From Paracoccaceae bacterium (GTDB taxonomy: Bacteria > Pseudomonadota > Alphaproteobacteria > Rhodobacterales > Rhodobacteraceae): a stretch of DNA of 36,977 bases. A model generated the notes under the pieces. It was not told the origin of the DNA and did not search any database. It saw only the letters and a program-made list of their open reading frames with translations. How positions within the stretch are numbered: position 1 is the stretch's first letter; the number at the start of each line of letters is the position of its first letter. The stretch covers positions 1 through 36,977 of the forward strand of contig JACSRN010000090.1 of NCBI GenBank assembly GCA_014879735.1, written 5' to 3'. Position numbers and translations under genes: made by a program. Positions 10,123-26,519 of the stretch are shown piece by piece.

Positions 10123-10389
10123 ATGACGGCAAAGGCCATGGCGGTAAAGGATGAAATCGAGGCTCGGCTGAACGATGCGTTCCGGCCGTCGGAACTGCGG
10201 GTGGTGAACGAAAGCCACCGCCATGCCGGCCATGCCGGCGACGACGGCTCTGGCGAAAGCCATTTCGCGGTGACGATCCGGGCACCCGAACTGGCAGCGA
10301 TGAGCCGGGTGGCACGGCACCGGGCGGTGATGAAGGCGCTGGGTGACATCCCGGTGCGAATCCACGCGCTGGCGCTGGATATCGGCTGA
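10123..10389 (+). CDS. bolA: BolA family protein
   Basis: An 88-residue BolA-type protein. BolA proteins bind monothiol glutaredoxins and [2Fe-2S] clusters and take part in iron homeostasis and transcription control. The family blocks are visible: LNDAFRPSELRVVNESHRHAGH (positions 14-35), SHFAVTIRAPEL, and the helix RVARHRAVMKALGD, with the invariant C-terminal His in VRIHALALDI. GGGGAGG six bases before the ATG sets the start, six codons inside the longest frame. Divergent from the J-domain gene. Confidence 0.93.
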   Translation: MTAKAMAVKDEIEARLNDAFRPSELRVVNESHRHAGHAGDDGSGESHFAVTIRAPELAAMSRVARHRAVMKALGDIPVRIHALALDIG

Positions 10390-10416
10390 AACGGGGCCGC
10401 GTCCGAGGATTGCCCG

Positions 10417-10458
10417 GGGGGAACTGCGGCGGGGGAACTGCGGCGGGCGGAACTGCGT
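10417..10458. repeat. 14-bp tandem repeat between bolA and the next gene
   Basis: Two identical copies of GGGGGAACTGCGGC and a third imperfect copy lie in the 212-base gap after bolA. The rest of the gap is GC-rich and shows no gene. It looks like slippage; no terminator is apparent here. Confidence 0.85.
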
Positions 10459-10601
10459 CGCGGGGCCGCGGGGGACCCCGCCGCGCCGCCGCAGGCCGTG
10501 CTTGCCGAATCCGCCGGGCCGCTCCACCCTCTGCAGAAGGGGTCGGCGCCGGCGCGCATCGGGTGCGTCGCGGCCGGATTCCGATGGTGGGAGCGTTGTA
10601 G

Positions 10602-11048
10602 ATGAAACTGTCCGAGATGTTTGCAAGCCTGTCGCGCAGTGCGCAGGATCTGGAGCAACGCATGGGCGAATGGGAGAAGGACCTGTCGCAGCGCAGTGCC
10701 GAATGGATGGAGAGCGGCAAGCAGTGGCTGGCCGATGCGCAGAAGCGCGACGACGAGATGACCGCGCAGTTGAAGGGCTATGTCGATCAGGCCAGCGACC
10801 AGGTCAAGGCGCAATGGACCAAGGCCCAGGGCGAATGGGATGCCGAGGTGGTGCGGATCCGCGGCATAGCCGACGGCCTGCGCGCCGATGCCGCGCGGAT
10901 GTCGGCCCGCGAACGCGCCGAATGGTCCGAGGCCTATGCCGCGCAGATGGTGAACTTCGCCCAGAAGATGCAGGAAGAGGCCGGCAAGGCCCTTGCCGAG
11001 GCCGCAGAGGCGCGCGCGCAGGCCGAGGCGGACAAGAAGCCGGGCTGA
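10602..11048 (+). CDS. Small helical (coiled-coil) protein, function unknown
   Basis: A 148-residue protein that appears entirely alpha-helical: no Pro or Cys except the last Pro, few Gly, and alternating charged and hydrophobic residues with many Trp in a regular pattern (GEWEKDLSQRSAEWMESGKQ, then QWTKAQGEWDAEV). The C-terminus is an Ala/Glu helix ending in KKPG. No signal peptide or membrane segment is seen, so it is probably cytosolic. I do not recognise the family; a resemblance to phasin-like or apolipoprotein-like amphipathic proteins is only an impression. It starts 14 bases after a GGGAGCG stretch and ends 16 bases from the convergent purN stop codon. Confidence 0.75.
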   Translation: MKLSEMFASLSRSAQDLEQRMGEWEKDLSQRSAEWMESGKQWLADAQKRDDEMTAQLKGYVDQASDQVKAQWTKAQGEWDAEVVRIRGIADGLRADAARMSARERAEWSEAYAAQMVNFAQKMQEEAGKALAEAAEARAQAEADKKPG

Positions 11049-11064
11049 CAGGCCCGCCGGCCCG

Positions 11065-11655
11065 TCACGGCAGGAGGACCGGCGTCCGGTCCCCTGCCGC
11101 ATAGCGGCGCAGCACGGCCGGATAGAGCCGGTGCTCCATCGTCAGCACCCGTGCGGCCAGCGTGTCTTCGCTGTCGCCGGCCAAGACCGGCACCCGCGCC
11201 TGCCCCAGAAGCGGACCGGCGTCGAGTTCGGCCGTCACCTCGTGCACGGTGCAGCCGGCCTGGGCATCGCCGGCGGCCAGCGCCCGGGCATGGGTATGAA
11301 GCCCGGGATATTTCGGCAGAAGCGAGGGGTGGATGTTCAGCATCCGCCCCTGGAACCGGGCAACGAAGCCAGGCGTCAGCACGCGCATGAAACCGGCAAG
11401 GCACAGGATATCGGGTTGGGCGGCGTCGATATGGCGCAGGAGTTCGGCCTCGAAGGCGGTTCGGTCGCCGCCGAAGGGCCGATGATCCACCGCCGCCGTC
11501 GCCACCCCCAGCGCCGCGGCCCGCGCCAGCCCCGCCGCCGCTGGATCATTGGCGGCCACCAGCACCGCCCGCGCCGGGTGATCCGCGGTCATCGACCGCA
11601 GAAGCGCCAGCATGTTCGATCCGCCCCCCGAAATCAGGACGGCCACCCGTTTCAC
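11065..11655 (-). CDS. purN: Phosphoribosylglycinamide formyltransferase
   Basis: Uses 10-formyltetrahydrofolate to formylate GAR in the third step of purine synthesis. The 196-residue protein shows the N-terminal nucleotide loop [10 protein letters not shown], the catalytic [20 protein letters not shown] block with the active-site His, and the [17 protein letters not shown] motif with the catalytic Asp. The start is a GTG whose last two bases overlap the TGA of purM (GTGA), so translation is coupled to purM as is normal for this pair. Confidence 0.96.
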
Positions 11656-12737
11656 AGCAAGGCGCCCTTGTAGATCACCGTGGTGCCCTCGGCCGTGGCC
11701 GGCACGATCCGGCCGAGGCGGGCCACGGTCTCGCCGGCTTCGGCCAGAAGTTTCTCGATCTCGTCGGCGCGGTTCGGCTCGACCGCAAGGACCATGCCGA
11801 TGCCGCAGTTGAAGGTCTTCAGAAGCTCGCTTTCCACCATGTTCGCAGTGGCCGCCAGCCAGCGGAAAACCGGCGGCAGGGCCCAGGCCGACAGGTCGAT
11901 CTCGCAGGCCAGCCCGCCGTCCGCGGTGGCGGCCGGCAGGATGCGCGGTGGGTTTTCCGTCAGCCCGCCGCCGGTGATATGCGCCAGACCGTGGACCCCG
12001 CCCGCACGGATCGCCGCCAGCGCCGGCCGGACATAAAGCCGGGTCGGTGCCAGCAGCGCGGCACCGAGTGTGCCCTCGCCCCAGGGACAAGGCGCATCCC
12101 AGCTCAGGCCCGAAAGCTCCACCACCTTGCGGACGAAGGAATAGCCGTTGGAATGGATGCCGTTCGAGGTCAGGCCCAGCAGCACATCGTCCAGCGCCAC
12201 GCCCCTGGGCAGATCGCCCCCCCGCTCCATCGCGCCGACGGCAAAACCGGCAAGGTCAAAGTCGCCATGGGCATACATGCCCGGCATCTCGGCGGTCTCG
12301 CCGCCGATCAGCGCCGCCCCAGAGGCCGCGCAGCCCAGCGCAATGCCTTCGATGATGCGGGCGGCCTGATCGACCTCCAGCTTGCCGGTGGCGAAATAAT
12401 CCAGGAAGAACAAGGGTTCTGCCCCTTGGCAGACCAGATCGTTGACGCACATCGCAACCAGGTCGATGCCGATCGTGTCCAGAATGCCGGTGTCGATGGC
12501 GATGCGCAGCTTGGTGCCCACGCCATCGGTCGCGGCCACCAGAACCGGATCGGAATAGCCCGCGGCCTTCAGGTCGAACAGCGCGCCAAAGCCGCCAAGC
12601 CCGCCCATCGTGCCGGCCCGGTCGGTCGCCCGGGCCGCCGGCTTGATCCGGTCGACCAGCCGGTTGCCGGCGTCGATGTCGACCCCCGCCGCCGCATAGG
12701 TCAGCCCAGTCTGCCCGCCATCCTTGCCCCTGCCCAT
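11652..12737 (-). CDS. purM: Phosphoribosylformylglycinamidine cyclo-ligase (AIR synthetase)
   Basis: ATP-dependent ring closure of FGAM to AIR, the fifth step of purine synthesis. The 361-residue protein carries [20 protein letters not shown] at the start (the flexible ATP loop), [13 protein letters not shown], the [19 protein letters not shown] core, [12 protein letters not shown] and [16 protein letters not shown]. It is slightly longer than most homologues because of an N-terminal extension [12 protein letters not shown] eight bases before the ATG supports this start. Overlaps purN by four bases and is divergent from the lipid kinase gene. Confidence 0.96.
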
Positions 12738-12866
12738 CGCCCGATCTCCGCTGGCCGCCGCTTTGCGGCCCCCATACGCGCTTTGGCGCGCGCGCGCAAC
12801 AAAACGCGGGGGGCGCGGAACCCGCTGTCCCGCCGGGCGTTGCCCCGGGGATCCGACGGAGCCGAG

Positions 12867-13778
12867 ATGATCGCCGAACCGATTGCCATTCTTGCCAATG
12901 CCGGTTCGGGCCGGAGGGGCGCCGCGCGCATCGCCGAACTGGTGCGACCCTTCGCTGCGGCCGGCCTCGGGGTCGAGATCCGCCGGATCGACCGGGGCCA
13001 CCGCCTGCCAGACGAGGCCCGGCGGCTGCGCGACGCCGGCTTCGGCACCGTCATTGCCGCCGGGGGCGATGGCACGGTGACGGCGGTGGCCCAGGCCCTG
13101 GCGGGAACCGATACCGTGCTGGGCGTATTGCCGCTGGGAACCTTCAACTTCTTTGCCCGCAGCATCGGCCTGCCGCCGACCCCGGATGCCGCGGCGGCGG
13201 CCCTGATCGGCGGCCGCGCCCAGGCGCTGGATCTGGCCGAGGTGAACGGAAAGGTCTTTCTCAACAACGCCAGCCTCGGGCTGTATCCCGCCATGCTGGC
13301 CGACCGCGAGCAGGCCTATGCCCGCTGGGGCCGGTCGCGCCTTGCCGCCTATTGGTCGGCGCTGCGCACGCTTGTCACCTATGACCGGAGCAGCGATCTG
13401 CGGCTGACGGTCGACGGCCGGACCGCCCGGGTCCGGAGCCCGATGGTCTTCGTGGCGGCCAATGCCTATCAGCTCGACCAGTACGGGCTGGAGGAAGGCG
13501 CAGAGATCGTGCGCCAGGGGCGGCTGGCGCTATATATCGCAAAGGATGCGAAGGGGCTGAAGATGCTGCGCTTTGCCACGCGGATGGTGCTGCGCAGCGC
13601 AAGGCCCTGGCAGGAATTCCTGCTGTCCTCGGGGCAGGAGATCACCATCGAGACCCGCGCGCCGCGCCGGACGGTGGCGCGCGACGGCGAACGCGGGCGG
13701 CTGTCGACGCCGCTGCATTTCCGCCTGCGGCCCGGCGCGCTGAAGGTGATCGTGCCGCAGGGCGGCGGCCAGGGATGA
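12867..13778 (+). CDS. Diacylglycerol/sphingosine kinase-like lipid kinase
   Basis: A 303-residue DAGK catalytic-fold protein (YegS/DgkB relatives), which phosphorylate lipid acceptors from ATP at the inner membrane face. Visible motifs are the N-terminal [11 protein letters not shown], the ATP-binding GGDGT (66-70), and LGTFNFFAR (90-98) corresponding to the GTxNDFA element; the usual Asp in NDFA is Phe here. The C-terminal beta-sandwich domain follows. ATG at MIAEPIAIL is preceded by GACGGAGCCGAG, a weak ribosome-binding site. It runs directly into a metallophosphoesterase gene 19 bases on, so the two are probably one operon. The lipid substrate is not readable. Confidence 0.85.
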
Positions 13779-13797: not shown

Positions 13798-14655
13798 ATG
13801 ACGACGGCCCGTCTCCTCCACCTTTCCGACCTGCATTTCGGCCGGGACAATCCGGCGCTGGTTCCGGCGCTGGTCGCGACGGCACAGGCGCTGGCACCCG
13901 ACCTGACGGTGATTTCCGGCGATCTGACCCAGCGGGCGCGGCGGCAGCAATATGCCGCCGCTGCCGCGCTGATTGCAGCACTGCCCGGGCCGGTCCTGGC
14001 GGTGCCCGGCAATCATGACCTGCCGCTCTGGAACGCCCTCGCCCGGTTCTTCACCCCCTGGCGGGCCTGGACGCGGGGCCTGGCGCTGCCGCTCGAGCCT
14101 TCGGCCGAAACCGCCGGCCTGCGTGTGGCCGGCATGAACACCGCCGATCCCTTCGCCTGGGAGCGCGGGCGCATCCGCATCGCATCGCTTGACCGCGCCT
14201 GCGCGCTGCTGTCGACGGCACGACCCGGGCAGTTGCGGGTGGTGGCGCTGCATCATCCGCTGGCGATGCCCCCCGGCACCGGCAAGACGGCGATGGTGGG
14301 CGCGGCCGAGGCCGGCGAGGCCCTGGCCGATGCCGGGGCCGACATCCTGCTCTGCGGCCACCTGCACCAATGGGCCGCCGGTCCCCAGACCCTGCGCGAG
14401 GGCGGCCGCGCCATGCTCTGCATCCAGGGTGGAACCACGCTGTCGACCCGGCTGCGGGGCGAGGAGAACGATTTCAACCTGATCGAACATGCCGCCGGTA
14501 CCGTGACGGTGACGCGCTACGCCAGCGCTGCAGGCCGCAGGCAGTTCACGCCCGTCAGTACGGCCCGGTTCCGCCAGGAAAACCCGGCCCGCGGCTGGGC
14601 ACCGCTGCCGCCGGCCAACCCCGACATCCGCCCGCCCGCCGGTAAAACCCTTTGA
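13798..14655 (+). CDS. Calcineurin-type metallophosphoesterase
   Basis: A 285-residue phosphoesterase with the full dimetal motif set: LLHLSDLHFG (D11, H13), VISGDLTQRA (D42), VPGNHD (N72, H73, D74), VALHHPLA and CGHLHQW. The compact form resembles the cyclic-nucleotide or lipid phosphodiesterases of this superfamily (CpdA, LpxH, YkuE); the LpxH call is unsafe. No signal peptide, so cytosolic. Downstream of the lipid kinase gene in the same direction, which hints at turnover of a phospholipid or nucleotide signal. The next feature, 42 bases on, is a tRNA gene. Confidence 0.88.
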   Translation: MTTARLLHLSDLHFGRDNPALVPALVATAQALAPDLTVISGDLTQRARRQQYAAAAALIAALPGPVLAVPGNHDLPLWNALARFFTPWRAWTRGLALPLEPSAETAGLRVAGMNTADPFAWERGRIRIASLDRACALLSTARPGQLRVVALHHPLAMPPGTGKTAMVGAAEAGEALADAGADILLCGHLHQWAAGPQTLREGGRAMLCIQGGTTLSTRLRGEENDFNLIEHAAGTVTVTRYASAAGRRQFTPVSTARFRQENPARGWAPLPPANPDIRPPAGKTL

Positions 14656-14697
14656 CGCCGCCGGCATATCTGCTAGGCCAAGCCAGCGGCACGCCGC

Positions 14698-14773
14698 GGG
14701 CCTGTAGCTCAATGGTCAGAGCAGGGCGCTCATAACGCCTTGGTTGGGGGTTCGAGTCCCTCCGGGCCTACCA
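14698..14773 (+). tRNA. tRNA-Ile(CAU), lysidine-modified type
   Basis: A complete 76-base cloverleaf with encoded CCA. Acceptor GGGCCTG pairs with CGGGCCT (two G-U pairs); D arm GCTC...GAGC; anticodon arm GGGCG-CTCATAA-CGCCT gives anticodon CAT; T arm GGGGG-TTCGAGT-CCCTC. CAT anticodons belong to initiator Met, elongator Met or Ile2. A paired first base excludes the initiator, and the AGCAGG...CTCATAA...TTGGT context matches my memory of tRNA-Ile2, whose C34 is converted to lysidine by TilS to read AUA. Elongator Met remains possible. Confidence 0.85.
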
Positions 14774-15671
14774 TATTTCACCCGCCAGCGTTTCGGATCG
14801 AAGAGCATCCGCCTGAAAGCGGGGGTTTCCGGCTCCGCCGCGATATCTCCGCTGCGGTCAGGGTCCTGCGGCAGGATGCTTGTTGCTTGCGTACTGCCGG
14901 GGGGGCGGGGTGCGGTGGCGGGTGCGCCGCGCCACCCGATCCACCGCGCGGGCGGCAGGCGCAAGGCGATGCGGCGGGGGGCTCGCGGCCGGGCCGATGG
15001 TCCAATGGGCTTCTACCGGCCAGATCGCGACGGATCCGGGCTCTGCCCGCCCGGATCGCGGCCGATCCGGACAAAGGGGCGGCGGATCCTCCGCGATCCG
15101 AATGACAACCGGAACCGTCCTGCACATCACGCGAAAGCGGTTTTTCGGAGTTTGCACATTCTGGCCCGCGGCCTTCCGAGCGGTTGCGGGAGGAAACGGC
15201 ACCCGACTGCCCTGCCCCGCCTGGCACCGCGCGCGCCCCCGGGGGCGAGGCATCGCGCCGGATAAGCCGGCCGTTTGCCGCGGATCGGGCCGCCGCGAAA
15301 CCTCTTGCCACGAAGGGGGTCGCGGCAATATTCTCTGGTCATCCGATGCAGGGAATTTTTGCCTGGAATTGCCGACCGTCCGCCGCGAAATGCGGGGCTT
15401 TCCCTTCGACGACCCCAGATCGCAGCAGCACATTCAGGAGGGCCAGAGACCGCATCCCCTGCGGGCATGATGCCATCCAGATCCGGAAACCTGCCGCGCG
15501 ACGGCACGGGACAAGGCGTTGCACCCGCCGTTTCGCTACGGGGCGGGAATGTGGCCGCGGCTGCATCGGCGCATTCCCGCAACAGATCCGGCCCTGACCG
15601 CATCCCCGGTTCCGGTAACAGGATATTAACCCTGTTCCCCGATGCTCATCTTCATTCCGAAGGAAGAGGCC
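14774..15671. other. 898-base stretch without a recognisable gene
   Basis: Between tRNA-Ile and the solute-binding protein gene. The reading frames that stay open here are composition artefacts: they run in several frames at once, are Arg/Pro/Gly/Ala-rich and have no ribosome-binding sites. Landmarks are a small hairpin CGCGAAAGCG followed by GTTTTT (15130-15145), which might end a short plus-strand transcript, and an inverted repeat with an AT-rich loop close to the next gene. Being beside a tRNA, it is a plausible scar of past integration, but I see no integrase or repeat of the tRNA end. Confidence 0.55.
15617..15636. promoter_or_regulatory. Inverted repeat upstream of the solute-binding protein gene
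   Basis: AACAGG and CCTGTT form a 6-bp dyad around ATATTAAC, the most AT-rich spot in this gap, 36 bases before the start codon of the solute-binding protein gene. The placement fits an operator overlapping the promoter or leader of the sensor operon. No confident -35/-10 pair can be named. Confidence 0.4.
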
Positions 15672-17240
15672 ATGACGGTCTTTCGCATCTTCGCCCTTGT
15701 TCTTGCACTGGTTGGCCCGCCGGTCCGGGCCGAAACCACCGTGATCGAAGCTCTGACCGATCTGAACGTGAATTTCGATCCGGTCTATTCCAGCAATGTC
15801 AGCAGCCCCGTCCTGATCGACAGCCTGTTCGACACGCTGGTGGCCTGGGATGTCGAGGGCGATCTGTTGCCCGCGCAGGCCGACCGCTGGGAGATCTCGC
15901 CCGACGGGCTGGTCTATACCTTCCATCTCGGCTCCGGCAACCGCTGGACCGATGGCGCGCCGGTGGTCGCCGAGGATTTCGTCACCGCCTTCCGCCGCTT
16001 CGTCGACCCCGCGACCGACGATCTGACCGTGCTGCGCTACCTGCTCGATCCGGTGGTCAATGCCATCGACATCGCCGCGGGCAAGCGGCCACCCGCCGAC
16101 CTGGGCGTACGCGCCCTGGACGAGCATACGCTGGAGATCACGCTCACCTCCCCCACCAGCTATTTCACCGAGATCCTGGCCCAGCCCGCGCTGTCGGCCG
16201 TGCCCACCCATGTCCTGGCCCAGGGCGAGGACGGGTGGACCGCACCCGACCGGATGGTGACGAACGGCCCCTACCGGCTGGAATCCTCGGAACCCGGACG
16301 GGTGACGATGGTGCGCAATCCCGATTTCCACATCCCGCCCGAACCCGACCGCATCGAACTGATCTTCGTCGACGATACCGCCGAACTGATGCGGCTGCTT
16401 GCCAGCAACAAGGTCGATATCGTGCTGTCCCTGCCGCAGAAGGCCGTCGCGGCGCTGCGCAGCGGCGCCTGGATCAAGACGATCGAGGTCGAGGCGAGTC
16501 CGGCCACCACCTATCTGTCGATCAACACCGCAAGACCGCTACTCAACGACCTCCGGGTCCGCCAGGCGCTGGATCTTGTCATCGACCGCGCGGCGCTCAA
16601 CCAGGCGCAGGACGAATATGCCGGGGTGGTTGCAACCTCCTTTACCTCGCCCACGCTTTTCATCCATGTGCCGCCGCCGGGCCAGCCAGACCTGCCGCCT
16701 TATCCCGAACGGGTGGAGCAGGCCCGTGCCTTGCTGGCCGAGGCCGGCTTCAACGCAGGCAACCCCCTGCAACTGATGCTGATGCGCCGCGCCTCCAGCC
16801 CGCAAAGCAGCGCCGCCTTCGTCGGCATCCGCGCGATGCTGGGCCAGCTTCCGGTCGAGGTCACCACCCTGGAGCCGGATCGCGACGAACTTCTGCGCCG
16901 GCTGCACATCGGCGAGTTCGACCTTGCGGTGCTGACCTGGCAGGGCGACTACAACGACCCGATGACATTCCTCGCCCTGTTCCGTGCCGGCGGGTTCGCC
17001 AATTTCTCGGCCTGGGTGAACCCGGAATACCAGCGCCTTCTGGACGAGGCGCTTCGGGTCACGGACAAGGCTGCGCGCGAGGAGATCTATCTGCGCATGG
17101 AGGCGCTGATCCGCACGGAGATTCCGGTTATCCCGCTGCGCCACAGCGCAATTTCGATCGTTTCGTCGCGTCATCTGCTGATGCCGAAACTTGTCAACGG
17201 CATCATCTATCCAAGGTTGGTGCGTTTTCGGGATGGCTGA
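15672..17240 (+). CDS. Peptide-type ABC solute-binding protein (OppA/DppA family)
   Basis: A 522-residue periplasmic protein of solute-binding family 5. A Sec signal peptide (MTVFRIFALVLALVGPPVRA, cleavage before ETT) has no lipobox, so the mature protein is soluble. The family features are present: early VIEALTDLNVNFDPVYSSN, WEISPDGLVYTFHL near residue 75, NGPYRLESSEPGRVTMVRNP, and a C-terminal ALIRTEIPVIPLRH block. Members bind oligopeptides, opines, nickel or other ligands. AGGAAGAGG before the inner ATG and the signal peptide decide the start. No permease or ATPase gene follows; instead the stop codon overlaps the start of a hybrid histidine kinase, suggesting that this protein presents a ligand to the kinase rather than to a transporter. 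Confidence 0.93.
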   Translation: MTVFRIFALVLALVGPPVRAETTVIEALTDLNVNFDPVYSSNVSSPVLIDSLFDTLVAWDVEGDLLPAQADRWEISPDGLVYTFHLGSGNRWTDGAPVVAEDFVTAFRRFVDPATDDLTVLRYLLDPVVNAIDIAAGKRPPADLGVRALDEHTLEITLTSPTSYFTEILAQPALSAVPTHVLAQGEDGWTAPDRMVTNGPYRLESSEPGRVTMVRNPDFHIPPEPDRIELIFVDDTAELMRLLASNKVDIVLSLPQKAVAALRSGAWIKTIEVEASPATTYLSINTARPLLNDLRVRQALDLVIDRAALNQAQDEYAGVVATSFTSPTLFIHVPPPGQPDLPPYPERVEQARALLAEAGFNAGNPLQLMLMRRASSPQSSAAFVGIRAMLGQLPVEVTTLEPDRDELLRRLHIGEFDLAVLTWQGDYNDPMTFLALFRAGGFANFSAWVNPEYQRLLDEALRVTDKAAREEIYLRMEALIRTEIPVIPLRHSAISIVSSRHLLMPKLVNGIIYPRLVRFRDG

Positions 17241-19593
17241 GTCCGCAAGAGCCGGATCGGAGGTGGCGCGTCGCTGGACGCGCAGCGCGCATCTGCACGA
17301 GTTCCTGCGGGTGGCGCTGTGGTTCTGGCCGTTCGGCGACCGCTCGGCCGACTGGGCGATCGTCCGCCGGCTGATCGTCATCGTCTCGGTTGGCGCCGGC
17401 CTGATCGGCGGGTCCTGGATCCTGGTCTCGAAACTGCAGCATCTGCGCTTCCAGCGGCAGATTCTGGAAAGCACGACCCAGACCGCCTCGAACGGCATCG
17501 CGATGAACATCGCGGTGATGGACTATGCCTCGGCGGCCTTTCTGGCCGAGGCCCATCGCACCACAAGCGGCGTGCTGGCCGTGCAGGTTACGGACCGCTA
17601 CGGCTTTCTGGTCTACGGCCCCGAACAGATTGATCTGACGAGCTATCCCTCGCATGCGACGCTGGTGGAGCGCGCCCTGGTCGATGCCGGCGGTGGGCCC
17701 GGCGGCACGGCCGAGACCGTCGGCCTCCTGCGGCAGGTGGTCGAAGAACCCACGGTGCAGGGCATCCTGATCGATGTGCTGTGGAAAGGCCTCGCCGCGG
17801 CGCTGCTGTTCGGCAGTGCCGTCGCGCTGACGATGCAGGTCTACATGCATCGTTTCGTCATCGCCCCGCTCGAACATTTCATCGACGCCGTCGCCCGGAC
17901 CAGCCAGACCGGAAAATACGTGCGGGTGGAATATCTGTCCGAAACCAGCTTTGGCATCTTCGCGCGCAATTTCAACCTGATGCAGGATCGGCTGGAAAGG
18001 CAGGATCTTGAACAGCAGGCTCTGCTTGACCAGAACGGCCGGATCAACAGCGACCTGTGGGAAGCCTATGGCCGCATCCGCCAGGACCAGCGGGTGAAAC
18101 TGGCGCAGTTCGAGGCGCTCGGCCGCGTCCTTGATCAGGCCGAGATCCTGATCACCTATGCCGACGCGGCCGGCCGGCCGGTCTTCACCAACCTCCGCAG
18201 CCATCCGCTGCCCGCCATTGCCGAGGTGATGCGGCAGACCGGCTTCGACGGGCAGGAGATCTTTCACAAGCTGACCGCGGCGGGGCTGTCCTGCCAGTTT
18301 GTCAGCACCGGCTCTCCCGGCAGGGAGGATGCACATGATGGCTTTGCCATCGAGGTCGCCTCGCCCGATGGCCGTGCCTGGGTGCTGGTTGCCGGCCCGA
18401 ACGACATCGAGGGGCAGGTGATCCTCTGCACCCACATCTCGAAACTGCGCGAGATGGAACAGCGGCTGCGCCAGACCCAGAAGATGGAGGCGCTGGGTCG
18501 GCTGGTGGGCGGGGTCGCGCATGAGTTCAACAACATGCTGTCGATCATCTCGGGCAACCTCGATCTGCTGGAGATGGCGGCCGCGGGCAAAGATCCGATG
18601 CAGAGCGATTCGCTTGCGGCCGCCCGCCGGGCTGCGGAACGCGCGGCCGCCACGGTGTCGCAGCTTCTGGCCTTCACGCTGCGCAAGGTGCTGAACCGCC
18701 GCCGGATCGAGATCACACCGCATTTCACCGGATTGACCGGAATGCTGCGCGGCGTCCTCGGCCCCGGAATCTCGCTGCAGGTTTCGATCGAACCGGGCAT
18801 CGTGATCGACTGCGATCCCGACCAGCTGGATGGTGCGGTCATCAACCTGGCCACCAATGCGCGCGATGCCATGGAACGGTCGGGCATGCTCTATCTGCGG
18901 GTCTTCCGGCGCGGGGAATGGCAGGTGGGGGATAACGGCCAAATCTGGCAGGACTTCTGCGTGATCGAGGTCGAGGATACCGGCCCCGGCGTGCCCCGGG
19001 ACCTCTGGCACAAGATCTTCGACCCATTCTTCAGCACCAAGGCCGCCAGCGGCAAGGGCGTCGGCCTCGGCCTTGCGGCGGTCTCGGGCTTCGTCGAGGC
19101 CTTCGGCGGCCGGGTCGAGGTGCAAAGCGGGGCAAGCGGCGGCGCGCTTTTCGTGCTGAGGCTCCCTGCCGGCTGCGACCGCCAGGCCGACACGCCGACC
19201 CTTCGTCCCCCGGTCTTCGCCGCCGCCGGCATGGCTGCCCTGGTCGTCGAGGACGAGGCCGATGTGCAGCGCATCGCCGTGCTTTTCCTGCAGCGCTGCG
19301 GTTTTGCCTGTGACACCGCCGCCACGCTCGAGGAGGCGCGGCAGGCGCTGTCGGACCAGCCGAGCGACCATTATCGCCTGCTGGTCTGCGACCTGCAGCT
19401 TCCCGACGGCAATGGCGCCGATTTCCTGCCAGCGTTCCGCACCACCAATCCGGCGGCACGGATCATCTGCGCCAGCGGCTATTCCGACGCCACGCTGATC
19501 GAGCAGTTGGACGGGCTGGTATTCCTGGGCAAGCCCTACAGCTTTGCGACCCTGAACGAAACCGTGGCCAGGCTGTTCGCCGCACCGGGCTGA
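17233..19593 (+). CDS. Membrane-bound hybrid histidine kinase
   Basis: A 786-residue inner-membrane sensor. In order: cytoplasmic N-terminal tail, transmembrane helix about 46-66, a periplasmic domain about 67-178, second transmembrane helix about 180-203, HAMP and coiled-coil linker to about 300, a PAS-like segment about 300-410, HisKA with phospho-acceptor H430 (GGVAHEFNNMLS), HATPase with N-box INLATNARDAM near 537 and GKGVGLGLAAVSGF, and a C-terminal receiver with VVEDEAD and phospho-acceptor D720 (LLVCDLQLPDGNG). There is no DNA-binding or Hpt domain, so an unlinked phosphotransfer protein or response regulator is needed. The start overlaps the solute-binding protein gene by eight bases, tying the two together. 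The ligand is unknown. Confidence 0.93.
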   Translation: MAESARAGSEVARRWTRSAHLHEFLRVALWFWPFGDRSADWAIVRRLIVIVSVGAGLIGGSWILVSKLQHLRFQRQILESTTQTASNGIAMNIAVMDYASAAFLAEAHRTTSGVLAVQVTDRYGFLVYGPEQIDLTSYPSHATLVERALVDAGGGPGGTAETVGLLRQVVEEPTVQGILIDVLWKGLAAALLFGSAVALTMQVYMHRFVIAPLEHFIDAVARTSQTGKYVRVEYLSETSFGIFARNFNLMQDRLERQDLEQQALLDQNGRINSDLWEAYGRIRQDQRVKLAQFEALGRVLDQAEILITYADAAGRPVFTNLRSHPLPAIAEVMRQTGFDGQEIFHKLTAAGLSCQFVSTGSPGREDAHDGFAIEVASPDGRAWVLVAGPNDIEGQVILCTHISKLREMEQRLRQTQKMEALGRLVGGVAHEFNNMLSIISGNLDLLEMAAAGKDPMQSDSLAAARRAAERAAATVSQLLAFTLRKVLNRRRIEITPHFTGLTGMLRGVLGPGISLQVSIEPGIVIDCDPDQLDGAVINLATNARDAMERSGMLYLRVFRRGEWQVGDNGQIWQDFCVIEVEDTGPGVPRDLWHKIFDPFFSTKAASGKGVGLGLAAVSGFVEAFGGRVEVQSGASGGALFVLRLPAGCDRQADTPTLRPPVFAAAGMAALVVEDEADVQRIAVLFLQRCGFACDTAATLEEARQALSDQPSDHYRLLVCDLQLPDGNGADFLPAFRTTNPAARIICASGYSDATLIEQLDGLVFLGKPYSFATLNETVARLFAAPG

Positions 19594-19952
19594 AATCCGG
19601 GTCGTGCCCGGCCCCCTTCGGAAAACCCCTGTCGCGGCCGGGCCTGATGTCCCGCCGCCGCTGTCGCCGGCGTGGGGCAACGGCCCGGTCCTTCCGCCAC
19701 CAGCCGTCTCGGCAACGGCCAGGGACCTGCCGCGCCCCCCCGCCCGGCAGCAGCCCGGTCCGAATATCCAGCAGGGCGGCCGCAAGCCCGGCGCCAGCCG
19801 GCAGCGCGGGGCCGATCCGGGCGGAAACACCCCGCGTCAGCGCATGCTTACGGCCGTTGCGGACCCTTCGCTTGACGCAATCCCGGCCGGGTCCTATCGC
19901 CCCGGAGGACAGGTTTTCCCCCTTCCCCCACCAGCCAACCGGAGCCGCCGTG
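19594..19952. other. 359-base gap between the kinase and the lipid operon
   Basis: GC-rich sequence with no ribosome-binding-site-led gene; the open frames here are extensions or shadows. No strong terminator for the kinase transcript is evident. The downstream end carries a plausible promoter, listed separately. Confidence 0.5.
19872..19900 (+). promoter_or_regulatory. Candidate sigma-70-type promoter for the lipid operon
   Basis: TTGACG (5 of 6 to the -35 consensus) is followed after 17 bases by TATCGC, a weak -10. Transcription would begin about 45 bases before the LAB_N-type gene. Spacing and -35 are good; the -10 is poor, so confidence is moderate at best. Confidence 0.4.
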
Positions 19953-20270
19953 ATGCGTGACATCCTGTGGTCGGCCCTGCATGTGCAGGGCTGGACCGAG
20001 TTCACCTGGGTGATGGTCGGCCTTGCCGGCCAGTTCCTCTTCACCGCGCGCTTCCTCGTCCAGTGGATCGCCTCGGAAAAGCAGCGCCGCTCGGTCGTGC
20101 CGGTGGCGTTCTGGTATTTCTCGCTGGCAGGCGGGACGGTGCTGCTGACCTATGCGCTCTGGCGGCGCGATCCGGTCTTCGTCCTTGGCCAGTCGATGGG
20201 CCTGCTGATCTACCTCCGCAATCTCTGGCTCATCCATGCCGAGCGTCCCGGCCGTGCAACCGAATCCTGA
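19953..20270 (+). CDS. LpxB N-terminal-like membrane protein (LAB_N)
   Basis: A 105-residue inner-membrane protein matching the lipid A biosynthesis N-terminal (LAB_N) domain, usually found alone or fused to LpxB or to glycosyltransferases. The marks are FTARFLVQWIASEKQRRS and VPVAFWYFSLAGG followed by SMGLLIYLRNLWLI; three membrane helices are expected at about 18-36, 51-70 and 75-92. Function of the stand-alone form is not established; it resembles small sugar- or lipid-carrier-handling membrane proteins. GGAG precedes the ATG, and an adjacent GTG one codon upstream could also serve. It overlaps the following glycosyltransferase gene by 35 bases, so the products are probably made together. 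Confidence 0.85.
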   Translation: MRDILWSALHVQGWTEFTWVMVGLAGQFLFTARFLVQWIASEKQRRSVVPVAFWYFSLAGGTVLLTYALWRRDPVFVLGQSMGLLIYLRNLWLIHAERPGRATES

Positions 20271-21744
20271 CGCCGCGCTGTCCGGCTGGGGTCGTGCGAC
20301 CCACCCGACCCGGGTGGCGCTGGCGGCAATCCTGCTTGTCACACTCTGGCGGTTGATGCTGGGCGCTTTCGACCGCACCGGCCTGTCGACCGACGAGGCG
20401 CAATACTGGGCCTGGGGGCAGGCGCTGTCCTTCGGCGCCTATTCCAAGCCGCCGTTGATCGGCTGGATCATCCGGGTCTCGACCGAGCTGTTCGGATCGC
20501 AGGTCTGGGCGGTCCGCCTGCCCGCGGCACCGATGCATGCGGCAACGGCGGTGGTGCTGCTGGCGCTGGGGCGGCGCGTGGCGGATCCCGCGCTGGCCGC
20601 CGGCGCCGCGCTGGCCTATCTGACGACCCCCGCCGTCGCCCTTGGCTCGGTGCTGATGACGACGGACACGCCGCTGCTTCTTGCGGCGGCGCTGGCCCTG
20701 CTGGCGCAGGTCGAGCTTGCCCGCACGGGCCAAGCCGGCGGGCGGACGACGGCGCTGGCGCTGGCGCTCGGCCTTGCGGTCGGCATCGGGTTCCTGGCGA
20801 AATATGCCATGGCCTTCGCCCTGACCGGCATGGTCCTTGCGGCATTGCTGTCGCCCGGCTGGCGACCACGGACGCGCGATGCGGCGCTGGCATCGGCGGC
20901 GGCGCTGTTGGTGATGGCCCCGCATCTGGCCTGGCTGGTGCAGAACCGATTCGTAACCTTCCACCACCTGGCCGAATCCTCGGGCATGGAAGGCGGCGCG
21001 CTGGCCCCGGGCGAGGCGCTGCGGTTTCTTGCCAGCCAGCTTGCCGTGATGGGGCCGATCCTCTTTCCCGCGATGCTGATCGCCATTGCGCGGGCGCGTC
21101 GCGGCACGGCGGCGGCGGGGCTGGCCGCGCTGGCGGCGACGCCACTGGTCATCGTGCTGGGCCAGGCGCTGTCGGGCAAGGCGCTGGCGAACTGGGCGGT
21201 GCTTTACCTGCTGCCCGGTGCGATCCTTGCCATGACCCCCCTTGCCGCCCGTCCGCTGCTGCGACACCTGTCCTTCGCGATCGGCCTGCTTGTCACGCTC
21301 GCCCTGCCGCTGGCCATGGCCGCCGGTCCGGCGCTGCGCCTGCCCGGCGACCGGCCGGCGCTGGCGCGCTATCTGGGGCACGAGGCGCTGGCCGCGCCGA
21401 TCCTTGCCGCGGCAGAGGCTGCCGGCGTGCAGACCCTGGTCGCCACGGACCGCGACCTGCTGGCCGATCTCACCTGGTTTGCCCGCGACCGCGGCCTCGC
21501 CGTCCGGGCGCTGCCGCCGCAAGGCACGGCACAGAACCACTGGGAGCTCGCCTTCCCGTTCCGGCCCGCGCCCGGGGACGGCCCGGCCCTTCTGGTCCTG
21601 CGCGAGGGGGCCGTACAGCCCTGCCCCGCCGCCCGGCCGGCCATCCGGCTGACCGCCGGCGATGGCTTTGCCGCCGGCGACGTGATCCTTGCGATCCCCA
21701 TCGCGCCCGCCACCTGCCCCGCCCTGTTCGGACCCCCACCATGA
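20236..21744 (+). CDS. GT-C glycosyltransferase (ArnT/PMT-like)
   Basis: A 502-residue polytopic membrane protein of the dolichyl-phosphate-mannose or ArnT-like GT-C class (PMT_2 type). The first loop holds the catalytic acidic pair D53-E54 in LSTDEAQYWAWG, followed by AYSKPPLIGWIIR, which is strongly characteristic. About ten hydrophobic helices follow and the last 130 residues form a soluble periplasmic domain. These enzymes transfer a sugar from a polyprenyl-phosphate donor to lipid A, a protein or a glycan on the periplasmic side. The position between a LAB_N protein and a PAP2 phosphatase points to lipid A or a related lipid as acceptor; donor sugar unknown. Starts inside the previous gene and ends by ATGA overlap with the next. 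Confidence 0.9.
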   Translation: MPSVPAVQPNPDAALSGWGRATHPTRVALAAILLVTLWRLMLGAFDRTGLSTDEAQYWAWGQALSFGAYSKPPLIGWIIRVSTELFGSQVWAVRLPAAPMHAATAVVLLALGRRVADPALAAGAALAYLTTPAVALGSVLMTTDTPLLLAAALALLAQVELARTGQAGGRTTALALALGLAVGIGFLAKYAMAFALTGMVLAALLSPGWRPRTRDAALASAAALLVMAPHLAWLVQNRFVTFHHLAESSGMEGGALAPGEALRFLASQLAVMGPILFPAMLIAIARARRGTAAAGLAALAATPLVIVLGQALSGKALANWAVLYLLPGAILAMTPLAARPLLRHLSFAIGLLVTLALPLAMAAGPALRLPGDRPALARYLGHEALAAPILAAAEAAGVQTLVATDRDLLADLTWFARDRGLAVRALPPQGTAQNHWELAFPFRPAPGDGPALLVLREGAVQPCPAARPAIRLTAGDGFAAGDVILAIPIAPATCPALFGPPP

Positions 21745-22502
21745 CCGATCCGCTGCATCACCGGCTTCTTCTCCTGTGGCTTTTCGCCATGGTCGCGGCG
21801 CAGGCGCTGTTCGCCGCCTTTCCGGAAATCGACCTTGTCATCGCCCGCGCGATGACCGACGGCAGCGGCAGCTTCGTTGCGACGCGGGGCGTCCTGCCCT
21901 GGCTGAGCGGCCTTGTCCGGCTGATGACGGAGATTGTCGCCGCGGTCATCGTCTTCGGCACGCTTGCCGGCTGGATCGGCGGCCGGCTGCGCGGCGCGGC
22001 GCTGCGGCTGGCCGGCTATGCCGCGGCAAATGTACTGTTGGCCCCGGGGGTGGTGGTAAACCTTGTGCTCAAGGCCCATGTCGGCCGCGCCCGCCCGGCC
22101 ACGCTGAGCGAATTTGGCGGCACCCGGGATTTCACGCCAGCCTGGCAGTTCTCGGAACAATGCGATCGCAACTGCTCCTTCGTCTCGGGCGAGGTGTCGA
22201 TCGCGGCGACGCTGGCGCTGATCGCCGTCGTGCTGTTCTGGCCGCGGATGACGAGGGCGGGGCGCGGTCTTGCCATTGCCGGCGGTCTTGCGGCCGTCCT
22301 CGGCGTGGCGGCGATGCGCCTGGCGCTGGGGCGGCATTTCCTGTCGGATGCGGTCTTTGCAACGCTGATCTCGGCCGGCGTGGCACTGGCGCTCTATCCG
22401 CTGTTCGGCCTGTCTCGGGCGCGGCGCGATCTGCCGCTGCCCCAGCCCCTGCCCCAGCCGGACACCGCTGCAGCGGGTGCCCGGCAGACCATATCAGGCT
22501 AG
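21741..22502 (+). CDS. PAP2-family membrane phosphatase (LpxE/LpxF-like)
   Basis: A 253-residue membrane phosphatase with about six helices. PAP2 motif 1 is KAHVGRARP (K111, R118, P119). Motif 3 is RLALGRHFLSD with R193, nucleophile H199 and D203. Motif 2, normally PSGH, reads CDRNCSFVSGEVS, so E151 stands where the second catalytic His is expected; two Cys precede it and may form a periplasmic disulfide. Family members remove phosphate from lipid A, phosphatidylglycerol phosphate or undecaprenyl pyrophosphate. ATGA coupling to the glycosyltransferase suggests a shared lipid substrate, for example dephosphorylation of lipid A before or after sugar addition, or release of the carrier phosphate. 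Pro/Gln-rich tail of about 25 residues. Confidence 0.88.
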   Translation: MTDPLHHRLLLLWLFAMVAAQALFAAFPEIDLVIARAMTDGSGSFVATRGVLPWLSGLVRLMTEIVAAVIVFGTLAGWIGGRLRGAALRLAGYAAANVLLAPGVVVNLVLKAHVGRARPATLSEFGGTRDFTPAWQFSEQCDRNCSFVSGEVSIAATLALIAVVLFWPRMTRAGRGLAIAGGLAAVLGVAAMRLALGRHFLSDAVFATLISAGVALALYPLFGLSRARRDLPLPQPLPQPDTAAAGARQTISG

Positions 22503-22546
22503 TTCCGCCAGCGCTTCGCACGCCCGGCCATGGGTGCCGGACCGGC

Positions 22547-23713
22547 TCAGCCCAGTCCCACCGCGACGCGGGCGGCACGGGCGATGACCAGTTCCTCGTT
22601 GGTCGGGATGACCAGGACCGGAACTTTCGCATCATCGGGCGAGATGCAGCGGGCATTGGCGGCGTTGCGGTCGGGATCAAGGCCAAGGCCCATCCAGGCC
22701 AGGCCCCCGGCCACCCCGGCACGGATGCGGCGCGAATTCTCGCCGATGCCGCCGCAGAACACCAGCGCATCGATCCCGCCCATATCGGCGGCCAGGGCGG
22801 CAACCTCGCGCTGACAGCGGGCGATGAAATAGCCGATGGCCTCCTCGGCCGCCGGCGTGCCGGCCGCCTCGAGCGTGCGCATGTCGTTCGACAGGCCGGA
22901 GAGGCCGAGAAAGCCCGACCGACGATAGAGCAGATCCGAGATCTGCGCCGCCGTCATGCCCTTCTGGTCCATCAGATACAGCAGCACGCCAGGATCGACC
23001 TGGCCGGTCCGCGTGCCCATCGGCAGCCCGTCCAGCGCAGAGAAGCCCATGGTCGAGGCCACCGAACGGCCAGCCGAGATCGCGCACATCGAGGCGCCGT
23101 TGCCCAGATGCGCCACCACCACCCGGCCGGCGGCCAGGGCAGGCGCGCGCATCGCCAGTTCACCGGCGATGAACTGATAGCTCAACCCGTGAAAACCGTA
23201 ACGCCGCACGCCTTCGTCATACAGCGCGCGGGGCAGCGCGAAGGTGTCATGCACGAAAGGGTGGCCGCGGTGAAAGGCGGTGTCAAAACAGGCCACCTGC
23301 GGTACGCCGGGAAAGGCCGCCATGGCGGCGCGGATACCGGCAAGGTTGTGCGGCTGGTGCAGCGGCGCAAAGGGCGACAGCCCCTCCAGATCCGCCAGCA
23401 CCCCGGCATCCACCGTGACAGGCACCTGTCGGTCCGGGCCGCCATGCACCACCCGGTGGCCGATGGCCAGCAGATCAAGCCCGGGCCAGCGCGCGCGGAA
23501 CGCCGCGATCACCGCCGCCATGGCCCCTTCGTGGCCAGACAGATCCCCCGCCGCCGCAATCGGCGCGCCGGCGGTATCCACCAGCTTCAGCACGCCCTCG
23601 GGGCCGATCCGGTCGGCGATGCCGGTGGCCAGCGGCGCATCCCCCGCCGCGGGAAACAGCGCCACCTTCAGCGACGAGGACCCCGCATTCAGCGTCAGAA
23701 CCGCCCGCGTCAT
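22547..23713 (-). CDS. ackA: Acetate kinase
   Basis: Interconverts acetyl phosphate plus ADP with acetate plus ATP in the cytosol. The 388-residue protein has both acetokinase signatures: LTLNAGSSSLKVALF at the N-terminus and CFDTAFHRGHP further on, plus IGHRVVHGG, HLGNGASMCAI and the C-terminal VFCGGIGENSRRIR. Length is close to the usual 400. Its ATG overlaps the TGA of the upstream MaoC-phosphotransacetylase gene (ATGA), so both are coupled and together convert an acyl-CoA to the free acid with ATP gain, or run in reverse for acetate uptake. Convergent with the PAP2 gene; 44 bases separate the stop codons and no terminator is clear. Confidence 0.96.
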   Translation of the reverse strand: MTRAVLTLNAGSSSLKVALFPAAGDAPLATGIADRIGPEGVLKLVDTAGAPIAAAGDLSGHEGAMAAVIAAFRARWPGLDLLAIGHRVVHGGPDRQVPVTVDAGVLADLEGLSPFAPLHQPHNLAGIRAAMAAFPGVPQVACFDTAFHRGHPFVHDTFALPRALYDEGVRRYGFHGLSYQFIAGELAMRAPALAAGRVVVAHLGNGASMCAISAGRSVASTMGFSALDGLPMGTRTGQVDPGVLLYLMDQKGMTAAQISDLLYRRSGFLGLSGLSNDMRTLEAAGTPAAEEAIGYFIARCQREVAALAADMGGIDALVFCGGIGENSRRIRAGVAGGLAWMGLGLDPDRNAANARCISPDDAKVPVLVIPTNEELVIARAARVAVGLG

Positions 23714-25092
23714 GCTGCGTCCCCCTTGAAATGGTGGATCGCCGCCACGGCGCAGGAGGCCAGCCGCGACATCGGGCTGTCGGACCGGCTGTTCAGGATG
23801 ACCGGAACCCGGGCGCCCAGAACCAGGCCCGCGCCCTCGGCATGGCTGATGAACGCCAATTGCTTGGCCAGCATGTTGCCGGCGTCGATTCCCGGCACCA
23901 CCAGGATGTTCGCCCGCCCCGCGACATTGCCCTTCAGCCCCTTGGTCCGCGCCGCACCCAGATCGACGGCATTGTCCATGGCCAGTGGCCCCTCGACCTG
24001 CCCGCCGGTGATCTGGCCGCGGTCGGCCATCTTCGACAGCAGCGCCGCATCGATCGAGGACTGGATCGCGGCGTTCACCGTCTCGACCGCCGAAAGCACG
24101 CCCACCCGCGGGTCCATTCCCAGCGAAAGCGCAAGGTCGATGGCATTCTGGCAGATGTCGACCTTGGCGGCGAGATCGGGCGCGATGTTGACCGCGGCAT
24201 CCGAGACGAGGATCGGCTCGCCCCGCCCCGGCACATCCATCACGAAGACATGGGTGAAACGGCGGCCCATGCGCAGGCCGGTTGCCTTGTCGAGCATCGG
24301 CCGCAGCAGGTCATCAGTGTGCAGATGCCCCTTCATCACCGCCGCGGCCCGGCCTTCGTGCACCAGCGCACAGGCGCGCGCGGCTGCCTCATGATCGGCT
24401 CCGGGAACGTCGATGACCTCGATCCCGGCGAGATCCTCGCCCGCCTCGGCCGCCACCGCCCGGATGGCCGCCGCCCGCCCGACCAGGATCGGCGTGATCA
24501 GGCTTTCCCGCGCGGCCAGCAGCGCCCCGCCCAGCGAACGGGCATCGTCGGGACAGACCACCGCCGTCGGCAGCGCCGGCAGCGGGCGGGCGCGCTCGAG
24601 CAGCGCCTCGAAATGCCGGTGGCGCTGCACGATCAGCCCCGGCATCTCGACATCTTCGCGGTCGAAGGGCACCGACGGCGCCTCGACCTCGGCCTCGCCG
24701 GTCAGGATCACGATCCCGCCCTCGGCGCGCCGCACCTCGGTGGCAAGCCGCACCACGCCGCCCGGCAGCTTCTCCAGCACCTCGACGCGGCAGATCAGCT
24801 CGTCGCCGGCATGCGCCCGGGCGTGAAAATCCAGCACCTGCCGGCGGTAGAAGGTCCCCGGCCCCGGCAGCCGCATTCCCAGCACGGCCGAAAGCAGCGA
24901 CGCCACGAACATCCCCGGCGCGATCCGCTCCACCTGCCCGTCGCCGTCCAGATCGCTGTCGGTCAGATGCATCGGGTTGTAGTTCCCCGAGGCCGCCGCA
25001 AAGACATAGAGGTCGTCCGCCGTCACGAGACGCCGCAACTCGCTGACATCGCCGACTGAAAGATCGGCATAGGTCCGGTTGGTGATCCGCAT
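23710..25092 (-). CDS. MaoC-like / phosphate acetyl(butyryl)transferase fusion
   Basis: A 460-residue two-domain enzyme. Residues 1 to about 150 are a hotdog-fold MaoC-like domain, with ASGNYNPMHLTD at 34-45; the (R)-hydratase Asp-His pair appears here as N37 and H42, so the catalytic Asp is replaced by Asn. Residues from about 165 are a phosphotransacetylase/phosphotransbutyrylase domain (MKGHLHTDDLLRP, RFTHVFVMDVPG, NANILVVP-like ANILVVPGIDAGN, GARVPVILNSRSDS). The second half converts an acyl-CoA and phosphate to acyl phosphate for AckA. GGGAGAG six bases before the ATG decides the start; the longer open frame is non-coding. The joined hydratase-like domain hints at short 3-hydroxyacyl or enoyl-CoA handling, which is inference. 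Confidence 0.92.
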   Translation of the reverse strand: MRITNRTYADLSVGDVSELRRLVTADDLYVFAAASGNYNPMHLTDSDLDGDGQVERIAPGMFVASLLSAVLGMRLPGPGTFYRRQVLDFHARAHAGDELICRVEVLEKLPGGVVRLATEVRRAEGGIVILTGEAEVEAPSVPFDREDVEMPGLIVQRHRHFEALLERARPLPALPTAVVCPDDARSLGGALLAARESLITPILVGRAAAIRAVAAEAGEDLAGIEVIDVPGADHEAAARACALVHEGRAAAVMKGHLHTDDLLRPMLDKATGLRMGRRFTHVFVMDVPGRGEPILVSDAAVNIAPDLAAKVDICQNAIDLALSLGMDPRVGVLSAVETVNAAIQSSIDAALLSKMADRGQITGGQVEGPLAMDNAVDLGAARTKGLKGNVAGRANILVVPGIDAGNMLAKQLAFISHAEGAGLVLGARVPVILNSRSDSPMSRLASCAVAAIHHFKGDAA

Positions 25093-25405
25093 GTTCTCTC
25101 CCACGCGGATCTGCCCCGCCTGTCCCGCGCCGCCCCTCCATCGCCCGTCCGCCGCGAAAGATCCAGCCTTTCGACCGATAGGCCGGAACGGTGCCGGGCC
25201 TGCTCCGGGACAGATCGGCCTCCGGGGGCTGCAGGCGACAGGATGGCGGCCCGGCGCGCCGGCGGGCCTGCAGGCGGTGCACCCCATCCGGCGGTTCCGG
25301 AAAATCCGGGGCCGGCCCGGGACGGATTCACCCGGTGATCAGGTCATATGGCCTTGATGGATGGATCATGTGGCCCTACCCTTGCGGGGTCGGCGGGAGG
25401 ATTCG
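25093..25405. other. Divergent intergenic region between pta fusion and TA pair
   Basis: A 313-base gap between the divergent phosphotransacetylase fusion and the antitoxin. The first 230 bases are GC-rich with no gene. The last 60 bases, nearest the antitoxin, hold the promoter and repeats described separately. Confidence 0.6.
25344..25382 (+). promoter_or_regulatory. Antitoxin promoter with paired direct repeats
   Basis: A -35 TTGATG (25354-25359) and a -10 TACCCT (25377-25382) are 17 bases apart. A near-identical 10-base repeat, TCATATGGCC (25344-25353) and TCATGTGGCC (25366-25375), has one copy just before the -35 and one in the spacer, 22 bases apart or two helical turns. This is the geometry expected for binding of the antitoxin dimer and autoregulation. 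Hexamers are weak matches, so it remains a prediction. Confidence 0.5.
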
Positions 25406-26484: not shown

Positions 26485-26519
26485 CGCCGCAATTCCCCCC
26501 GGCCACACCGCCGCACCGG

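Follow-up and report, generated by a model that had tools for sequence, protein, structure and literature searches.

In a contig of a Paracoccaceae bacterium we uncovered a gene for an OppA-related family-5 solute-binding protein (SBP) that overlaps the gene of a hybrid histidine kinase on the same strand, with no transporter gene adjoining the two. We propose that they constitute a dedicated two-gene co-sensor comparable to ChvE-VirA, which would be co-transcribed and probably translationally coupled, and we lean modestly towards this interpretation. The two probably form a single sensing unit. Arrangements of this kind are already known, but the two proteins involved here are unusually isolated.

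The overlapping genes and their products

The window, i.e., the whole stretch of 36,977 nucleotides that was analyzed, is one entire contig, and hence the surroundings of the pair are visible only up to its edges. The pertinent features are the following:

14698..14773, + strand: tRNA-Met, the left neighbor of the pair
15672..17240, + strand: family-5 SBP gene (522 aa, OppA-related, with a hydrophobic N-terminal segment, no Cys and no transporter genes adjoining)
17233..17240, + strand: 8-base overlap, ATGGCTGA; the start codon of the kinase falls within the 3′ end of the SBP gene
17233..19593, + strand: hybrid histidine kinase gene (786 aa)
17371..17847, + strand: TM1 (aa 47-65), periplasmic segment of about 112-121 residues and TM2 (about aa 178-205), predicted from hydrophobicity and a low-confidence model
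17848..18480, + strand: HAMP-like linker (HAMP 13.2 bits, below the cut-off of 25) and a putative region of PAS-like strand order
18493..19170, + strand: HisKA (His at aa 430, HEFNN) and HATPase_c (N, G1, F and G2 box motifs), from Pfam and motifs
19240..19563, + strand: C-terminal receiver (Asp in VCDLQLPDG, aa 718-726; Ser and Lys motifs present)
19947..22502, + strand: LAB_N, PMT_2 and PAP2 genes of the lipid A or glycosyl modification type, starting about 353 bases 3′ of the kinase

The SBP gene extends from an ATG at 15672, with AAGGAAGAGG immediately 5′ of it, to a TGA stop at 17238-17240, and the kinase gene opens with an ATG at 17233; the eight letters common to both bear out the overlap described in the original prediction. 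Both are real, intact coding genes: their motifs are complete and their GC3 (0.83 and 0.84) is like that of the 12 other window genes compared (0.70-0.87, one mis-framed row being left out).

The SBP begins with a hydrophobic, signal-type segment and, as there is no cysteine anywhere in its chain, lacks a lipobox, in keeping with what had been noted at the outset. It matches PF00496 (SBP_bac_5) with 238.3 bits (E 1.8e-70; gathering cut-off 32.4), its best sequence matches within this family being OppA (1b05, E 2.3e-64), MppA (3o9p, E 1.2e-49) and YgiS. We know of no kinase partner for OppA, MppA or YgiS. Among the PHROGs, the families matched by the SBP (phrog_18374, 207.7 bits) and by the kinase core (phrog_5982, 235.4 bits) both lack an assigned function.

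The second product is a membrane hybrid histidine kinase with two TM segments, in which HisKA, HATPase_c and Response_reg, all over their Pfam cut-offs and with intact catalytic motifs, lie in one chain. Its hydrophobic peaks (aa 47-65, and 178-196 or 187-205) leave a periplasmic segment close to the roughly 110 residues first estimated. For this segment we recovered neither a Pfam family over the cut-off nor a solved relative, which favors the co-sensor reading, and its structure model is poor (mean pLDDT 45.9), which weakens it. We set aside a low-scoring Pfam hit of the sensor, Esterase_PHB (E 0.016; 14.9 bits against a cut-off of 23). A second model, of aa 260-416 (mean pLDDT 56), displays a PAS-like strand order; as the fold search with it returned nothing at E 0.001 or better, with profilin as the best match and PAS-containing chains among the next, we treat a PAS module here as putative. 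The receiver, whose Asp, Ser and Lys motifs presumably have their usual roles, spans aa 670-777 with no domain beyond it, just as the kinase had been described as ending in a receiver without an output domain.

The best NCBIfam scores for the kinase core and receiver are those for the CckA models NF046026 (224.8 bits) and NF046020 (215.7 bits), far under the curated cut-off of 1000, and the window kinase differs from CckA in bearing its periplasmic segment. Another kinase of the genome is a better CckA match (505.9 and 441.2 bits, also below 1000). The VirA-like model NF010411 is likewise among the best matches (186.9 bits), far from its curated cut-off of 647.

Departure of the binding protein from its relatives

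OppA-type models score the SBP at about 218 bits, far above NikA (97.6) and CntA (44.6), the latter an opine-metal binder. In OppA, Asp419 holds the peptide amine, whereas Arg413 and His371 lie near the other end of the ligand (partly after PMC6305025 and PMC9967938). The SBP retains the equivalent of Asp419 as its own Asp426, a residue present in 28 of 29 relatives, along with Trp416 and Asn437 (OppA numbering throughout), but the Arg413 position, an Arg in all 29, is occupied by Val, and the His371 position, a His in 26 of the 29, by Gln; OppA and YgiS keep both. Thus, of the ligands originally listed (a peptide, opine or metal chelate), the model scores and the preserved Asp419 favor something peptide-like with an amine end and render an opine or metal chelate less likely.

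Of 70 positions conserved among its family relatives, the SBP keeps 50 and differs at 20, versus 64 in OppA (one of its six misses being an alignment gap), 62 in a Salinivibrio SBP with no annotated permease within 6 kb, and 58 in YgiS, which in the one record inspected has no annotated transporter gene within 4 kb. This departure from the transporter relatives favors a sensory dedication. Nevertheless, the SBP sits on a very long branch of its tree (3.36, the median terminal branch being 0.22) and may represent an old lineage of its own; part of the 20 differences would then be normal for that lineage, which weakens the argument. The same branch, with the loss of the conserved Y109, H161, H371 and R413, could alternatively signify an SBP that is decaying or has adopted a non-sensory role (e.g., chaperone-like) in which the ligand pocket no longer matters. 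Given its intact frame, a GC3 like that of its neighbors, and its retained Asp419, Trp416 and Asn437, we accord this alternative very little credence.

Transporter genes, linkage and flanking genes

The best relatives of the SBP, at most 37% identical, reside in ordinary Opp operons: an ABC ATPase gene lies downstream in all 13 fetched neighborhoods, and the intervening genes encode Opp-type permeases in each of the three checked by Pfam. A kinase within about 1.5 kb was seen for none of 37 relatives, in a search by similarity to the window kinase that could miss a very unlike one. Unlike such OppA-type proteins, the window SBP is not encoded with OppBCDF. Neither Pfam on 30 distinct window ORFs nor motif patterns on those window ORFs that reach at least 180 aa revealed an ABC permease or ATPase (of the 152 window ORFs of at least 90 aa, most are not genes; the ATPase pattern recovered all 13 Opp operons, whereas that for permeases is insensitive), and the initial remark that neither adjoins the pair stands.

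The 4.4 Mb genome holds 24 SBP_bac_5 matches and 18 OppC_N matches (16 over the cut-off). The original prediction had raised the prospect of a matching permease elsewhere; every one of the 18 OppC_N matches has some other SBP_bac_5 gene within 7 kb, leaving no orphan, and this, with the lack of a permease in the window, argues for the co-sensor. Conversely, five of the 24 SBP_bac_5 genes, including that of the pair, lack any OppC_N match within 7 kb (one of the five is near a contig end); a lone SBP is therefore not special in this genome, and the four others weaken the case. A kinase flagged by pattern beside another lone SBP was not borne out by Pfam.

These observations bear on the principal alternative, namely that the SBP is a stray transport component passing its ligand to a permease whose gene lies elsewhere, with the kinase sensing alone and the overlap reflecting a chance operon. 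A precedent is MppA, which likewise lies outside any transport operon and borrows the Opp or Dpp permease (PMC6022919). The 18 OppC_N matches and the transport neighborhoods of the relatives also speak for it, as do SBPs of Pseudomonas aeruginosa that are encoded near a kinase at two sites and showed no interaction with that kinase (PMC11113362). However, the closest other SBP of the genome is only 30% identical, and hence the clade of the window SBP offers no evident permease; moreover, positions kept by transporter SBPs are lost here. We hold this alternative to be unlikely, though far from negligible. A further variant is that the SBP serves both ends, feeding an unlinked transporter that is induced by the kinase, as in BctC-BctE, where one SBP serves transporter and kinase and the kinase induces the transporter genes (PMC9602780); but BctC belongs to a transporter operon and the window yielded no transporter gene, making this variant improbable.

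Bacterial genomes typically encode some tens of kinases. Assuming such a number alongside the 24 SBP_bac_5 genes, roughly 0.1-0.2 same-strand SBP-kinase neighbors would be expected by chance, and so the adjacency taken alone is only suggestive. A homologous pair was recovered from none of the genome samples searched; thus, no second genome attests to conserved linkage. The window itself was the sole match of the kinase sensor in the family (1 of 295 genomes, E 1e-15) and class (1 of 385, E 1e-6) samples, with the best few candidates per genome scored, and in the genus (1 of 13, E 1e-4), as it was for the full kinase across the family (1 of 394, E 1e-68; two candidates scored per genome). Plasmids yielded no kinase sensor match at 1e-8 and six records matching the SBP at 1e-60, the best 34.5% identical. 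In a collection of 84,980 species, scans with short exact patterns, which reveal close relatives only, gave 15 matches for the kinase sensor and 31 for the SBP, none confirmed. Among the titles and abstract openings inspected in the open-access literature, none described a family-5 SBP and a hybrid kinase acting as a pair.

A functional link between the pair and the downstream lipid A-type genes is unproven, and is weakened by a single relative, G010, in which the LAB_N-PMT-PAP2 run follows a glycosyltransferase gene, with no match to the SBP or kinase in the 15 kb fetched. Equally unproven is a recent mobile island beside the tRNA-Met. On this question the relevant observations are the neighbor-like GC3 of the pair; one weak, below-cut-off transposase match at 5322-5756, the sole one in the scan of 30 window ORFs; the repeat list for 14600-30000, in which the tRNA end has no copy; and G010, which shares the left side of the window and ends 386 bases past its tRNA-Met. 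In loci L078-L082, the region past the tRNA was searched for the window's own proteins only.

A proposed sensory role and its precedents

According to PMC11113362, the genes of 10 of the 11 characterized SBP-kinase couples are neighbors, which, together with the ChvE-VirA precedent, favors the co-sensor. In the latter system, the target of ChvE is the periplasmic domain of VirA, which is likewise a hybrid kinase ending in a receiver and passes phosphate directly to VirG (PMC4705274). The window pair resembles it in combining a periplasmic binding protein with such a kinase, but ChvE is a sugar SBP, whereas the window SBP is OppA-like. In the AatJ-AauS-AauR locus of Pseudomonas syringae, an SBP is likewise encoded with a two-component system, transport and regulation being genetically separable (PMC7386598); that locus includes the aat amino-acid transporter genes, whereas none were found beside the window pair.

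In the proposed scheme, the SBP would be exported and bind a peptide or peptide-like compound whose amino end is free, whereupon the loaded protein would close and dock on the kinase through the latter's small periplasmic domain. The signal might then pass via TM2 and the HAMP-like linker, and possibly a PAS-type module, to the HisKA/HATPase core. Phosphate could be handed directly to a separate response regulator, the C-terminal receiver having a tuning role as in VirA, or travel by way of the receiver and a phosphotransferase. Of the phosphotransfer protein or regulator elsewhere that had been called for earlier, the former is not strictly required, since the VirA-VirG case indicates that a receiver-ending hybrid kinase can dispense with an Hpt partner. 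The idea that the SBP docks on the kinase as its ligand sensor is partly supported: it fits the overlapping genes, the small periplasmic domain, the lack of an adjoining Opp permease and the neighboring genes of most known couples, but is tempered by the kinase-free transporter relatives, the single instance of the pair and the P. aeruginosa cases.

A bolder version, which we consider distinctly unlikely, has an Opp-type SBP withdrawn wholly from transport and dedicated to the hybrid kinase, with its pocket rebuilt for amine-anchored ligands devoid of a standard free carboxyl end, such as long, capped or branched peptides, and possibly membrane-active peptides or murein fragments; it might even steer the downstream lipid A modification genes.

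In any event, the pair provides one more case by which to judge whether neighboring SBP and kinase genes work together as a rule. If it does signal, an OppA-type protein would here bind the ligand on behalf of a hybrid kinase, and the change in its pocket, with the amine anchor kept and the other-end residues lost, is specific and testable; the pair would then show how part of an importer becomes a sensor.

The overlapping gene pair and its setting

The overlap of the genes for a family-5 solute-binding protein (SBP; 522 aa) and a hybrid histidine kinase (786 aa), from which the original prediction started, is real: the two plus-strand genes share ATGGCTGA.

Features of the pair and its flanks
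14698-14773: tRNA-Met, left of the SBP gene
15305-15334: two overlapping promoter-like sites (chance expectation 0.7 in the 8 kb scanned)
15672-17240 (+): SBP gene, from an ATG with a strong ribosome-binding stretch directly upstream
17233-19593 (+): kinase gene, from an ATG
19947-22502: LAB_N-PMT_2-PAP2 gene run, starting 353 bases right of the kinase gene

The 898 bases between the tRNA-Met and the SBP gene have no assigned gene. The GC3 of the pair (0.83-0.84) falls inside the range of 12 other window genes (0.70-0.87). Since the window is the entire contig (36,977 bases), the surroundings can be read to its edges only.

In the genus relative G010, which has the same left side as the window, a glycosyltransferase 2 gene precedes the LAB_N-PMT_2-PAP2 run at the place held here by the SBP-kinase pair; a second LAB_N match of the bacterium's own genome lies on its contig C172. 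A block of ~740 bases at 11979 has matches in 13/13 genus genomes, in 10 of which (own included) a tRNA-Met is near on the same contig, and the window stretch directly after the tRNA-Met has no adjoining match among the genus matches listed. At 11979-13775, a single 599-aa ORF carries a YegS-type lipid kinase behind an N-terminal part of ~246 aa that has matches in other species of the genus. Of the genus stretches fetched, only that of G010 (L075) contains both parts, and there, as in the window, a metallophosphoesterase and then a tRNA-Met follow. Elsewhere, the window has a weak DDE transposase match (5322-5756, minus strand; 23.8 bits against a cut-off of 29.2), a 564-aa ORF with a DnaJ domain at its C-terminal end only (9411-11102, minus strand; aa 507-559), and a 378-aa ORF with a RES domain in its C-terminal part (25348-26481), while five other plus-strand ORFs scanned in 23.7-28.6 kb had no Pfam match.

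Relatives and ligand pocket of the solute-binding protein

The SBP matches Pfam PF00496 (238 bits) and, judged by its matches, is nearest to the SBPs of Opp transporters: its top NCBIfam models, both under their cut-offs, are PRK09755 (218.6 bits) and OppA (217.8 bits), with NikA (97.6 bits) and DppA (93.5 bits) far lower and also below cut-offs, and its closest solved structures are OppA chains (1b05, from Salmonella, 2.3e-64), against 1.2e-49 for MppA (3o9p). Matches at E 1e-45 occur in 67/248 family genomes and at E 1e-66 in 8/385 class genomes (own included in both), the best outside its own genome being 37% and 35% identical, respectively; at E 1e-100 the sole genome matched among 100 relatives is its own, where the next SBP is 30% identical.

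Across the alignment, the pocket is altered in a definite way. Of 70 positions common to at least 90% of 29 aligned relatives, the SBP matches 50, as against 64 in OppA (1b05; one gap), 62 in a Salinivibrio SBP and 58 in YgiS, and each of the 29 relatives, left out in turn, matches 90% or more. In OppA numbering, the SBP retains Asp419, Trp416 and Asn437, and replaces Arg413 (29/29 relatives) with Val, His371 (26/29) with Gln, Tyr109 (29/29) with Thr and His161 (27/29) with Gln. YgiS, likewise a lone SBP, shows the reverse, keeping Arg413 and His371 with a Thr at 419; hence, standing alone does not in itself account for the change seen here. In line with PMC6305025 and PMC9967938, Asp419 serves as the amine anchor, and Arg413 and His371 are close to the peptide's far residue. 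The end branch of the SBP in the tree (3.36 versus a median of 0.22, the program flagging its unlike letter composition) may reflect either fast change or a deep separate lineage, which look the same here; under the latter, part of the 20 differences could be typical of the group to which it belongs.

The kinase and the neighborhoods of SBP relatives

HisKA, HATPase_c and receiver domains of the kinase score over Pfam cut-offs, with catalytic motifs present. The top models for its core, all far below cut-offs, are CckA, PRK13557 and VirA-like; a better CckA match in the genome is another kinase (505.9 bits), which shares 34% identity with the window kinase across aa 394-777. The predicted periplasmic domain of ~110 residues is borne out by the ~112-121 residues between TM1 (aa 47-65) and TM2 (aa 178-196 or 187-205), which have no Pfam match over cut-off. 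In searches of 295 family, 13 genus and 385 class genomes, the sensory half (aa 1-400) matched nothing but itself; nor did it match any plasmid searched or any solved structure at E 1, and a pattern scan of 84,980 species yielded no confirmed relative. Single-sequence structure models of kinase parts were weak.

None of 29 loci examined, from 71 family SBP matches outside the own genome (~1.5 kb flanks, one shorter at a contig end), matched the kinase at E 0.01, and eight class loci (one shorter at a contig end) had no kinase match at a meaningful E-value, the single stray one being 24.6 bits (E 0.30). Among the 14 best family relatives, 13 gave wider neighborhoods of 14-16 kb (the remaining one sits on a 6-kb contig): each of the 13 has a downstream same-strand ORF with an ABC ATPase motif, with OppB- and OppC-type permeases between SBP and ATPase in 3/3 checked with Pfam, and none matches the kinase at E 0.001. 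The pair thus stands alone in all samples covered by the searches, with no second copy detected.

Transport or signaling

Matching permease genes elsewhere under shared regulation would have told against the original prediction. For each of the 18 OppC_N matches in the genome (16 over cut-off), some SBP_bac_5 gene, not counting that of the window, is found no more than 7 kb away; therefore, no OppC-type permease lacking a nearby SBP gene was detected, in a search blind to permeases without that domain. Of the 24 SBP_bac_5 genes, five (that of the window among them) lack an OppC_N match within 7 kb; nothing similar to the window kinase came up at E 0.001 near the other four, in surrounding stretches of 7-13 kb. 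These results support the prediction of an SBP with no transporter of its own, though it could possibly share the permease of another SBP, by analogy with MppA (PMC6022919).

Of the two partners that the prediction names for the receiver, a phosphotransfer protein or a regulator elsewhere, the former need not be present: VirA likewise carries a receiver and passes phosphate to VirG in vitro without Hpt (PMC4705274), so the receiver is no proof of a relay. SBP-driven kinases are a known kind, with about ten characterized cases (PMC9602780). PMC11113362 describes 10/11 SBP-kinase couples as having adjacent or closely spaced genes, yet also two sites where a neighboring SBP and kinase showed no interaction, one of them that of AruS, whose sensor domain is also about 110 residues; hence, we lean only modestly toward the pair acting as a co-sensor. 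The proposal that the SBP binds the ligand and docks on the periplasmic domain of the kinase survives as the most likely reading of the pair, comparable to ChvE-VirA and suggested by gene layout and analogy.
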